This document shows, piece after piece, positions 11,311 to 50,987 of a stretch of DNA of 64,000 bases. The notes under the pieces were generated by a model. The model had not been told where the DNA came from. It did no database searches and saw nothing but the letters and a program-made list of their open reading frames with translations. Within the stretch, counting starts at the first letter, position 1. The number at the start of each line of letters is the position of its first letter. The translations under genes and the position numbers were made by a program. Location of the stretch: contig QCTN01000001.1 in the NCBI GenBank assembly GCA_003211135.1, positions 62,001 through 126,000 of the forward strand, given 5' to 3'. This stretch comes from Prochlorococcus sp. AG-673-L20 (GTDB lineage Bacteria > Cyanobacteriota > Cyanobacteriia > PCC-6307 > Cyanobiaceae).

Positions 11311-11362
11311 CATATTGATTCTTTTTGATTTGATAATTACATTTAATAAATTTATTTTTTTT

Positions 11363-11368
11363 GGAGGG
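11363..11368 (+). promoter_or_regulatory. Strong Shine-Dalgarno site before non-ATG start
   Basis: GGAGGG is a strong anti-SD match, and many starts in this window have no comparable site. It sits 5 nt before ATC and 8 nt before ATA, at the head of the STAS gene that has no standard start codon. This position decides where translation begins. Confidence 0.7.
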
Positions 11369-11376
11369 ATAAAATC

Positions 11377-11742
11377 ATAGAAGATTTCCAAAAGCTAACT
11401 GTTTCTTTAAGGGGCAGCATCGAAATAAAGGCAAAAGTTATTGTTTTTACTTTAAAAGGCCAATTAGATGCATTTTCTGAAAAACAATTTAAAACTTTTA
11501 TTACCAATACCCTTAAAAAGGATCCTCTGTCATTTGTAATTGATTTAAGTAAAGTAGATTTCCTTGATTCATCCGGTTTAGGTGCCCTTGTTCAAACTTC
11601 TAAGGAATCCAAAAAACTTAAACTAGGTTTTTCTGTAGTTGGAAATTCTAGAGTTGCACAAACTATTAAACTTGTAAGATTAGCAGACTTTCTTAATTTG
11701 AAAGCTACTCTTCAAGAAGCATTGCTTTATTTAAAGAATTGA
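11377..11742 (+). CDS. STAS-domain anti-sigma factor antagonist with near-cognate start codon
   Basis: Absent from the ORF track because the open frame between the in-frame TAA at 11347 and the stop at 11742 has no ATG or GTG, and no TTG except near the 3' end. The translation is about 121 aa starting EDFQKLTVSLRGS and is a clear STAS domain, with VIDLSKVDFLDSSGLGALV carrying the phosphorylatable Ser (D64-S65-S66-G67). A strong GGAGGG ribosome site at 11363-11368 precedes ATC 11374 and ATA 11377 at 5 and 8 nt, so one of these is probably the start. Such proteins control sigma factors by partner switching. The stop overlaps the next gene's TTG by 4 nt (TTGA), showing translational coupling. 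Confidence 0.85.
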   Translation: MEDFQKLTVSLRGSIEIKAKVIVFTLKGQLDAFSEKQFKTFITNTLKKDPLSFVIDLSKVDFLDSSGLGALVQTSKESKKLKLGFSVVGNSRVAQTIKLVRLADFLNLKATLQEALLYLKN

Positions 11743-24054: not shown

Positions 24055-25347
24055 TTATATCATTATATTTGGAATTTTTCTAATATCTGTTGTAGATCCA
24101 GAACTTAATGAATTTCTATTCATTGCCCATTCTTGTGGTTTTTTTGTAATTGCCCATGTAATTACTTCATTATTAAATTTTTTATTCAAGGAGTCAATTG
24201 TTTTCATAAGACGGATTGATTTTTTTGATTCCTCTTGAGATTCGTAATTGATAATTGATTGCTGTAAATATTTGCAATTAGTTAAATCCTGCATTAAAAC
24301 CCCAGCTTTTGATAATTTATATTCCGGAGTATAAATTTCTTTAGATAATGCAAGTACTGTTTTTAAAATAGTACTTGTATTATCTGTTGCATTTATAAGT
24401 TTTTTATAAGCACTTTTGTGATAAGGATGATTTGAATAATGACTAGTTCTTACAAATATAGTAATGGCGGATGATTTTAAGCTTTGACTTCTCATTTTCT
24501 CGGACGCTTTTATTGCATAAATTGCTAATGCTTGAGTTAAATCTTCTAATTTTGTGATTGGTTTTCCAAAGCTTCTACTTACTTGAATCTCTTTTTTTGG
24601 CTTCTTAATTATTTCTATCGGAAGATATTTATTACCTTTTAATTCCATTTGTAATCTTTTCCCTATGATCCCTAACTTCTTAATGATTTCATCTTCATCC
24701 ATATCTCTGAATTCTTTTGCATTTTTAATCCCTTTGCTTCGTAACCAATTAGATGTTTGTTTACCAATACCCCATATTTTTTCTACACTAATTTTTCTTA
24801 AGTAATCATTATCATTATAGATCCTAGCTAAATCACATATTCCTGCGGAAGAATCTATATTCTTAGCTAGATTATTAGCAATTTTTGCTCTTACTTTGTT
24901 TTCTGCTATTCCTATTGTTAAAGTTATTCCTAGATTTTGATATATTAAGCACCTTACTTTTCTTGCCCAAGGATTTAAATTCTTATCTTTAGGTCTAAGA
25001 ATTGAAATAAAGGCTTCATCAATAGAATAAATCTCTATCTCTTCAGAATAGTCCTTTAATAAATTCATTAATCTCTTGCTCATATCACCATAGAGCGAAT
25101 AATTGGAACTTAGGACTGCAACTCCTAAGTTATTCAAACTTTCTTTGACTTTAAAATAAGGAGTTCCCATTTTTATTTTCAAAGCACGAGCTTCAGGGCT
25201 TCTTGCGATAATACATCCGTCGTTATTAGATAAGATTACTACTGGTTTATTCCTTAAATTAGGGTTGATACTTTGTTCGCACGATGCGTAGAAATTATTG
25301 GCATCTATAAGAGCTATTGCTTCAGTACTTGAGCTTTTACTTTTCAT
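24055..25347 (-). CDS. umuC: Y-family DNA polymerase, UmuC type
   Basis: A 430 aa catalytic subunit of DNA polymerase V-type translesion synthesis. It has IALIDANNFYASCEQ (first catalytic Asp), the palm motif YSIDEAF with paired acidic residues, and a helix-hairpin-helix region KIWGIGKQTSNWL. A little-finger domain and the UmuC-type C-terminal extension follow. Its ATG overlaps the umuD stop by 4 nt (ATGA). Confidence 0.94.
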   Translation of the reverse strand: MKSKSSSTEAIALIDANNFYASCEQSINPNLRNKPVVILSNNDGCIIARSPEARALKIKMGTPYFKVKESLNNLGVAVLSSNYSLYGDMSKRLMNLLKDYSEEIEIYSIDEAFISILRPKDKNLNPWARKVRCLIYQNLGITLTIGIAENKVRAKIANNLAKNIDSSAGICDLARIYNDNDYLRKISVEKIWGIGKQTSNWLRSKGIKNAKEFRDMDEDEIIKKLGIIGKRLQMELKGNKYLPIEIIKKPKKEIQVSRSFGKPITKLEDLTQALAIYAIKASEKMRSQSLKSSAITIFVRTSHYSNHPYHKSAYKKLINATDNTSTILKTVLALSKEIYTPEYKLSKAGVLMQDLTNCKYLQQSIINYESQEESKKSIRLMKTIDSLNKKFNNEVITWAITKKPQEWAMNRNSLSSGSTTDIRKIPNIMI

Positions 25348-25730
25348 AAGTAACTATGTATTGAATAGATTACAACTCCCCAAATTTGTATATCAATATG
25401 ATTTCTAAAACTGAAGTCTGGATATTTATGATTTTCTGCTTTTAAATATAATTCATTATTTTTTATAGATAATCTTTTTATAGTAAATTCTCCATCTATC
25501 ATCGCAATAATAATATTTCCTGGTTTAGCAGTTAGACTCTTATCTACTATTATTAAATCTTTATCTTTAATTCCTGAATTGATCATTGAGTCACCTTTGA
25601 CTCTAAGAAAAAAAGTACTAAAAGGATTAGATATTAAATGCTCGTTCAAATCAATATTTTCTTCAGCATAGTCATCTGCAGGAGAGGGAAAACCTGCTGA
25701 GACCGAATCACTTAATAATGGAATCTTCAC
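25344..25730 (-). CDS. umuD: UmuD-type self-cleaving SOS mutagenesis subunit
   Basis: A 128 aa S24-family protein. The cleavage site A12-G13 (VSAGFPSPADDY), nucleophile S48 (KGDSMI) and general base K85 (TIKRL) align with E. coli UmuD C24-G25, S60 and K97 at a constant 12-residue offset. RecA-stimulated self-cleavage would produce active UmuD'. It is the first gene of the operon and has a LexA-like box 43-56 nt upstream. Confidence 0.95.
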   Translation of the reverse strand: MKIPLLSDSVSAGFPSPADDYAEENIDLNEHLISNPFSTFFLRVKGDSMINSGIKDKDLIIVDKSLTAKPGNIIIAMIDGEFTIKRLSIKNNELYLKAENHKYPDFSFRNHIDIQIWGVVIYSIHSYL

Positions 25731-25772
25731 CTTTTTAAAAGTTAAATCAGAAGAATACGAAATTCTTGTAAT

Positions 25773-25786
25773 AGTACATATATACT
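25773..25786. promoter_or_regulatory. umuD: Putative LexA (SOS) box upstream of umuDC
   Basis: AGTACATATATACT matches the cyanobacterial and Gram-positive-style LexA palindrome AGTAC-N4-GTACT at all fixed positions except one (A for G in the right half). It lies 43-56 nt before the umuD ATG, in the promoter region of the only SOS-type operon visible here. The lexA gene itself is not in the window. Confidence 0.65.
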
Positions 25787-48879: not shown

Positions 48880-49407
48880 TTACTTTTTATTGCCGCCTAT
48901 TTGCGATAAATATTCATTGCTTACAGCAAAAGTTTGAAAAAATTTTTCGGACAGTGATAGCCAATAAGATCTCCCATCTTTTTGCTTACGTTTAATAATA
49001 AAATTTTTATTTGTTAATTCTTTTATATGTTCGTAGGCTCCTGAACCTCTTAAAACTATAAGATCTGACTGCAGTATTTTTTTCTTAATTGCAATTGTCG
49101 CAAGTGTCCTTAATTCTGATGTTCTTAATTCAGATGGTAATAAATCTTCTACAAATTCATTTAGAATTGTTTTTAACTCTAGACAATAACAACTATTAAT
49201 TTCATTTAATTCTATTGCAGATTTTGTGTCTGAGTATTTTTCCTTTAATTCTCTTAATGCCTTGTCAATAGACTTAATATCCGCATTAGTAATTTCTGAA
49301 AGATTCTTTTTTGATATTGGTCTACCTTTAAGATACAGAACAGCCTCAATTCTTGTAACCAGACTGATATCGGTTAATTTTTTAGTAATTAGATCAGCTT
49401 GATTAAT
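48880..49407 (-). CDS. scpB: Segregation and condensation protein ScpB, with near-cognate start codon
   Basis: Absent from the ORF track because the whole open frame (from the in-frame TAA at 49435-49437 to the stop at 48880) has no ATG, GTG or TTG. The translation is clearly ScpB: VTRIEAVLYLKGRPISKKNL, then SELRTSELRTLATIAIKKKI and LRGSGAYEHIKELTNKNFI, two winged-helix domains. ATT 49407 (giving 175 aa) is my choice; CTT 49434 and other ATT or CTG codons are possible. ScpB joins ScpA and SMC in chromosome condensation. It follows ilvA by 38 nt on the same strand. Confidence 0.85.
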   Translation of the reverse strand: MNQADLITKKLTDISLVTRIEAVLYLKGRPISKKNLSEITNADIKSIDKALRELKEKYSDTKSAIELNEINSCYCLELKTILNEFVEDLLPSELRTSELRTLATIAIKKKILQSDLIVLRGSGAYEHIKELTNKNFIIKRKQKDGRSYWLSLSEKFFQTFAVSNEYLSQIGGNKK

Positions 49408-49445
49408 TTTTTTTCTACCTAACTCTTTCCCAAGTTACCTTATTT

Positions 49446-50987
49446 TTAATCGGATGCACCCAGGAATAATTTATATGTTTGATTATTAGTTTCATCCCAG
49501 TATTTATATCCTAAGAATTCAACAAATTTATACCAGTAATTAATTTCAGCACTATCTATTAATACTCCTATTACAATTTTTCCTACATCAGATCCATGAT
49601 TTCTATAGTGAAATATGCTTATTGTCCAATTTGATTTCATATTTTTTAGAAAATTTATTAATGCTCCTGGTCTTTCTGGAAACTCAAATCTATATAGCAA
49701 TTCAATATATTTTGATTTTTCTAATTCACTAAATTTTTGAGGCAAACGACCACCTACCATATGTCTTAGATGATTTTTAGATAATTCATCATTACTTATA
49801 TCTATGAAAGGATAATTTGATTTCCTAAATTCTTGTAAAAGTTCTTCTTTATCAATTATTCCATTAACCTCGATTCCTACAAATATTTGAGCATTAACTG
49901 AATTGGACATCCTATAGCTAAATTCCGTTAAATTTCTATTATTTAACAAACTACAGAAATTAATTAAGCTGCCTGCCTTTTCTGGTATTTCAACAGCAAA
50001 CATTGCTTCTTTGTACTCTCCAAGTGCAGATCTTTCTGCTACAAATCGTAGTCTTTCGAAATTCATATTTGCCCCACATGCTATAGCAATCATATTTTTA
50101 TTTGCGTATTTTGATTGGAATATATCCTTTTTCATCCCTGCAATAGATAGAGCTCCAGCTGGTTCTAGGATTGATCTGGTATCTTCAAAAACATCCTTAA
50201 TAGCGGCACATATTTCATCAGTGTTTACAGTTATCATTTTATCGATATATTTTCTTCCAATTTCAAAGGTTTTTTCTCCAACTTTTTTTACTGCTACGCC
50301 ATCAGCAAACTGACCAACTGATGCTAATTCTATTAATTTTGAATTTTTTAAGGATTTAGTCATCGCATCAGCATCTTCAGGCTCTACACCAATTATTTTT
50401 ACTTGAGGCCAAATTTTTTTTATGTATATGGAAATACCAGCTATTAAACCTCCACCTCCTACAGCAACATATATTGCTTCTGGTGGTTTTTTTACTTGTT
50501 TTTCTAATTCAATGGCGATTGTGCCTTGGCCAGCTATAACTTCAGGATCATCGAATGGATGAATAAAGCATAAATTATTTTCTTTACTAAGGCGTAATGC
50601 TTCTTTATAGGTTTCATCATAATTATCACCGAATAATATAACTTTTGCTTTTAGATTTCTAACAGCATTTACTTTTACTAAAGGTGTAGTTATGGGCATC
50701 AATATAGTTGCGCTGCAATTTAATTTCAATGCACTTAGTGCTACTCCTTGTGCATGATTACCAGCACTTGATGTTATGACTCCATTCGCAAGTTGTGATT
50801 GTGGTAATTGTCTCATTTTATTAAAGGCACCTCTTATTTTAAAAGAGAATACTTCTTGTAGATCTTCTCTTTTTAAATAAATATTATTTTTAAGTGCTTT
50901 ACTTAAATTATTTGCTTTTTCTAAAGGTGTTTTTTTAGCTACTTCATAGACTTGAGCCTGAAGTATTTTTTTAAAATAATCTTCCAT
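49446..50987 (-). CDS. ilvA: Biosynthetic threonine ammonia-lyase IlvA
   Basis: A 513 aa PLP enzyme making 2-oxobutanoate for isoleucine. The catalytic half has KREDLQEVFSFKIRGAFNKM with PLP lysine K50, SSAGNHAQGVAL and VGGGGLIAGI. The C-terminal half holds two ACT-like regulatory modules, FAVEIPEKAGSLINFCSLL and YRFEFPERPGALINFLK, the sites of isoleucine feedback inhibition and valine activation in the family. It is divergent from dxs. Confidence 0.95.
   Translation of the reverse strand: MEDYFKKILQAQVYEVAKKTPLEKANNLSKALKNNIYLKREDLQEVFSFKIRGAFNKMRQLPQSQLANGVITSSAGNHAQGVALSALKLNCSATILMPITTPLVKVNAVRNLKAKVILFGDNYDETYKEALRLSKENNLCFIHPFDDPEVIAGQGTIAIELEKQVKKPPEAIYVAVGGGGLIAGISIYIKKIWPQVKIIGVEPEDADAMTKSLKNSKLIELASVGQFADGVAVKKVGEKTFEIGRKYIDKMITVNTDEICAAIKDVFEDTRSILEPAGALSIAGMKKDIFQSKYANKNMIAIACGANMNFERLRFVAERSALGEYKEAMFAVEIPEKAGSLINFCSLLNNRNLTEFSYRMSNSVNAQIFVGIEVNGIIDKEELLQEFRKSNYPFIDISNDELSKNHLRHMVGGRLPQKFSELEKSKYIELLYRFEFPERPGALINFLKNMKSNWTISIFHYRNHGSDVGKIVIGVLIDSAEINYWYKFVEFLGYKYWDETNNQTYKLFLGASD

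Follow-up and report, generated by a model that had tools for sequence, protein, structure and literature searches.

A conserved near-cognate AUU/AUC codon as the probable start of scpB in Prochlorococcus

The scpB locus and its open frame

The gene scpB lies on the minus strand of a 64,000-nucleotide stretch of DNA (the window, meaning the whole stretch that was analysed) from a Prochlorococcus draft genome of 1.42 Mb in 54 contigs, 84% complete. The open frame runs from an in-frame TAA at 49437-49435 to the TAA stop at 48882-48880, and none of its 184 codons, all of which were read, is ATG, GTG or TTG. Its product is ScpB by profile match, both to Pfam SMC_ScpB (PF04079; E 7e-34, 117.1 bits against a cut-off of 27.4) and to NCBIfam TIGR00281 (120.7 bits, cut-off 89.2), and the ScpA partner is encoded in the same genome (PF02616 match at G000:C31:5679-6386). 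The first-pass annotation had described an unmistakable ScpB with no standard start codon and with the other forward frames soon closed, and all three statements hold, as both other frames stop within 19 codons of the ATT discussed below. With codon frequencies taken from conserved genes of a close relative, the probability of 184 codons free of ATG, GTG and TTG is about 0.003, and none of the 486 conserved open reading frames of at least 150 codons in that relative's genome lacks all three.

The proposed coding sequence (48880-49407, minus strand, 175 amino acids) begins at an ATT at 49405-49407. It is preceded by an A8 run at 49407-49414, whose final A also begins the ATT, and by an AGGT at 49417-49420, a weak Shine-Dalgarno-like element whose counterpart GGTA falls within positions -18 to -4 in 93 of 104 relatives. 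Directly upstream on the same strand is ilvA (49446-50987), with its stop at 49448-49446, 38 nt before the ATT. This spacing is 36-39 nt in 103 of 106 relatives (36 nt in 69, 37 nt in 23), and the intergenic stretch, GGTA included, is conserved among them. Neither AGGAG nor GGAGG, the criterion used for an extended Shine-Dalgarno sequence, occurs within 30 nt of the scpB start, and folding of the RNA around the start gave no structured leader (z-score -0.44). The weak GGU(A) fits the view that Prochlorococcus does not depend on Shine-Dalgarno sequences (PMC5607370).

Position and evolution of the start codon

The start was located by comparison of 104 distinct scpB 5' regions from the same genus, 103 of which aligned in register, drawn from two overlapping sequence collections in which identical sequences were merged into one; the counts therefore rest on related sequences and not on independent events. 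Among named public records, the closest relatives come from single-cell genomes of Prochlorococcus and from strains of P. marinus. The codon at 49407-49405 is ATT or ATC in all 104 (57 ATC and 46 ATT among the 103 in-register sequences, with ATC also in L088, which has a small deletion downstream of the site) and is never ATA or ATG. The near-cognate ATT start proposed earlier thus finds a counterpart throughout the genus, where an ATG at the equivalent codon was looked for and none was found.

The site is bracketed on both sides. Of the 104 relatives, 12 have an in-frame stop at codon -2 and 16 have one at codon -3 (18 sequences with at least one of the two), while 3' of the site the scpB frame is open for 19 codons, and both other frames are closed, in every relative. 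Variation at Gln12, Asp14, Leu15, Thr17, Ile23 and Leu25 is mostly silent, residue 25 being leucine in 102 of 103 relatives through several different codons, and constraint of the protein type extends from codon 11. Because stops lie upstream and the downstream codons vary as a translated protein does, this comparison places initiation within codons 9-11 (AAA, AT[TC], AAT), where AT[TC] is the sole plausible initiator; it is very probably the scpB start codon. No in-frame canonical codon is present as far as 15 codons beyond the site in 91 of the 104 relatives, and in the other 13 such codons are at scattered positions. Upstream, 94 of 106 relatives lack, in all frames and within 90 nt, a canonical start from which translation would stay open as far as the site, and in 5-6 a TTG or ATG lies in frame 12-18 nt upstream and is usable as a start there.

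A tree of the scpB body shows nine changes at the third base of the start codon, each of them between T and C. By comparison, ATA is found in some relatives at each of the 12 conserved isoleucine codons of the body (with 660 ATT, 545 ATA and 217 ATC among body isoleucine codons), so the site does not behave as an ordinary isoleucine codon. By itself the lack of ATG is not statistically strong and no more than suggestive, as only a few changes to G are expected.

The weak start is not obligatory, as some sublineages of the genus have gained an ATG or share a GTG. Sequences L181 and L182 carry an ATG four codons upstream of the old start, and in L182 the former ATT is now GTT; L183, L185-L187 and L189 have in common a GTG at codon 26, at which their scpB may start. 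As a separate observation, scpB in the single-contig genome G024 (C1:558950-559430; L189, L193) gives two overlapping matches, each in a different frame, which suggests a frameshift or an assembly error in that genome.

In the family sample, most genera have an ATG, usually followed by GCC, near codon -22 relative to the conserved EA[IV]LYLKG, and ilvA lies upstream of scpB in other genera as well, including those that use ATG. Genera g4, g11, g17, g39 and g50 have ATC or ATT in place of this ATG, many of their sequences having no canonical start at all. Exceptions among them are an ATG further in (L155 of g39, L203 of g17 and L201 of g11), an ATG at the head of the open frame (L205 of g4), a TTG two codons upstream (L165 of g39) and, in several cases, a TTG inside the conserved domain. 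In genus g56 an ATG is present at -13 and the AT[TC] site is degenerate. Judged from these sequences, AT[TC] appears to have decayed in lineages with a newly acquired nearby ATG (L182 and g56).

Other near-cognate starts in the lineage

From scpB and a STAS gene in the same window, the first-pass annotation had suggested that this lineage tolerates near-cognate starts. A screen of 800 kb each of genomes G033 and G012, comprising 763 non-overlapping conserved open reading frame pairs, supports the suggestion, with clear cases of a start lacking in both genomes for scpB, the STAS gene, a 2-phosphosulfolactate phosphatase and an AEC-type permease (about 0.5%), to which scpA can probably be added. 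Most of the 51 hits of this screen proved on inspection to be alignment or shadow-ORF artefacts, and two, nadA and one unknown open reading frame, are uncertain. A UmuD-like gene of the window (25344-25784) was rejected as start-less, having GTG in one genome and TTG in the other.

The STAS gene (11350-11742, plus strand) is as first described; the start proposed here is an ATA at 11377-11379 after a GGAGG at 11363-11367. The 17 loci compared from the genus all have ATA, in one case immediately after TAA-ACC, and AT[TCA] occupies the same place in 42 further loci listed, 41 of them from other genera or families. GGGGG or GGAGG often precedes it, and 10 of these 42 listed loci have no in-frame upstream canonical codon; an AUA, AUC or AUU start behind a purine-rich site is possibly phylum-wide for this gene. 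The gene itself (L295-L324 and L394-L422 among the loci compared) is of the anti-sigma factor antagonist type.

The ComB-like phosphatase (L325-L345; G033:C1:585102-585863) has ATT-AAT or ATT-AAC in 21 of 21 sequences, near the GTG or ATG of the outgroup, and the family model NCBIfam NF002053 begins exactly at the residue of this ATT; in some relatives a TTG lies two codons before the ATT. The AEC-type permease (L355-L375; G033:C1:1123087-1124004) has no canonical start, with AT[TC] in 21 of 21 relatives.

The scpA gene of the window's genome (L393:1402-2289, on G000:C31; compared with L423-L426 and L453-L463) has no ATG, GTG or TTG before codon 58, and the conserved TTG start of the rest of the family aligns with an ATA in the nine other genomes of the genus examined, so ScpA and ScpB may both start at near-cognate codons. 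As those nine genes carry a TTG further in, the alignment makes such a start only probable for scpA. In nadA, which we take from its sequence to be quinolinate synthase (G033:C1 near 647270, minus strand, and its G012 counterpart), the first canonical codon is a TTG at codon 20, and the sequence leading up to it is nearly identical in G033 and G012.

Proposed mechanism, alternatives and significance

The reading favoured here, held with high confidence as a whole, is that scpB has an AUU/AUC start read by the ordinary initiator tRNA, with ScpB kept low by IF3-limited initiation and the codon retained by selection. Ordinary fMet-tRNA would read the AUU at 49407-49405, or AUC in about half of the relatives. 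Such codons would initiate poorly and be proofread by IF3, as precedents suggest, so that the start codon would hold ScpB synthesis well under the level given by AUG, and it would have been retained since low or IF3-tuned ScpB suits these cells. The conserved GGU(A) just upstream might assist initiation, as might ribosomes ending ilvA 36-39 nt earlier. The selected damping role, considered on its own, is only somewhat favoured. A changed initiator tRNA as the cause of tolerance was rejected, as none was seen in G033 and two other genomes of the genus, all of which keep the GGG/CCC anticodon stem. Autoregulation of the infC type was likewise rejected for this genome, where infC begins with ATG.

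The most serious alternative, though an unlikely one, is that ScpB synthesis depends mainly on translational coupling, with ribosomes reinitiating at AU[UC] 36-39 nt on after finishing ilvA and the poor codon being tolerated without a regulatory role. This would agree with the presence of ilvA next to scpB everywhere examined and with the tightly kept gap. However, the same gene order is found in genera that use ATG, so coupling does not explain the codon; the gap is also long for simple reinitiation, and the STAS, phosphatase and permease genes have the same codon class in other contexts.

Considerably less probable is a leaderless mRNA beginning at AT[TC], initiated at its 5' end by 70S ribosomes. 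Prochlorococcus probably has leaderless mRNAs, since 6-8% of primary transcription starts are within 10 nt of the translation start (PMC5607370). The conservation of the ilvA-scpB intergenic sequence, with its GGTA, argues against such a transcript here. Leaderless initiation, moreover, favours AUG.

A start at codon 25 (CTG here), with the conserved stretch before it untranslated, is very improbable. TTG is present at this codon in 18 relatives and would be picked by automatic annotation, but 71 of 103 have CTA, indicating that the constraint is for leucine and not for TTG, and codons 11-24 vary silently and never hold a stop; on these grounds it was rejected.

Still more remote is initiation at a canonical codon in another frame or in ilvA, followed by slippage into the scpB frame. 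The A8 run directly before the site had been put forward earlier as a slippage site, and a different run length in relatives as an argument against the ATT start. The run length does differ, from 1 to 8 and most often 4, with the coding frame unchanged, which is evidence against slippage but not against the ATT. With no conserved slippery run, and no open donor frame in any of the 104 relatives, a programmed frameshift was rejected. ScpB as a read-through product of ilvA, also raised in the first-pass annotation, is excluded because gaps of 36, 37, 38 and 39 nt change the frame between relatives. An assembly error or pseudogene, which a draft genome might suggest, is equally remote and is refuted by independent assemblies, including the single-contig G033, G012 and G023, in which AT[TC] recurs and ATG is absent, and by purifying selection on the protein.

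The proposed AU[UC] start of scpB is of a known kind, that of infC, and is unusually well conserved. The near-cognate start of infC is AUU in E. coli, AUC in Streptomyces and AUA in S. aureus (PMC5472188, PMC13009471); both genes have a conserved AUH-class start at which IF3-limited initiation is expected, but infC regulates itself, whereas the product of scpB is not IF3. Ordinary genes of S. aureus, cvfC1 (AUU) and ccpN (AUA), also have conserved non-canonical starts, and conserved AUU/AUA starts there give roughly 10-30% of the AUG yield (PMC13009471). Those starts have extended Shine-Dalgarno sequences and were experimentally mapped, whereas scpB has only GGU(A) and its start is deduced from sequence. 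Streptomyces sigR, with a GTC start, is likewise a conserved rare start missed by annotation, which holds one partner of a complex low through repression by IF3 (PMC5472188); it differs from scpB in its codon, its strong ribosome site and the experimental demonstration of IF3 repression. E. coli pcnB, going by the title of a 2002 paper that PMC13009471 cites, has an inefficient AUU start that limits expression, a likeness to scpB by description and not by sequence, and one that concerns a single E. coli gene. A survey of 36 genome groups found a single switch to AUU among 61,358 ancestral AUG starts (PMC5622118), which makes an AU[UC] start shared by a whole clade unusual; our literature search found no paper on near-cognate starts in Prochlorococcus.

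Gene finders restricted to ATG, GTG and TTG cannot place this start, and scpB is therefore probably truncated or missed in many Prochlorococcus annotations. A broader and doubtful extension is that high-light Prochlorococcus might have an IF3-gated set of conserved AUH starts, those of the condensin partners scpA and scpB included, that would tie ScpAB dosage to translation state, with the STAS gene extending the device across the sampled cyanobacteria. Kept across the genus and several sister genera, and decaying where an ATG arose, the AUU/AUC of scpB is a clean natural case of a maintained weak start, and it opens the question of whether ScpAB dosage in a streamlined genome depends on IF3.
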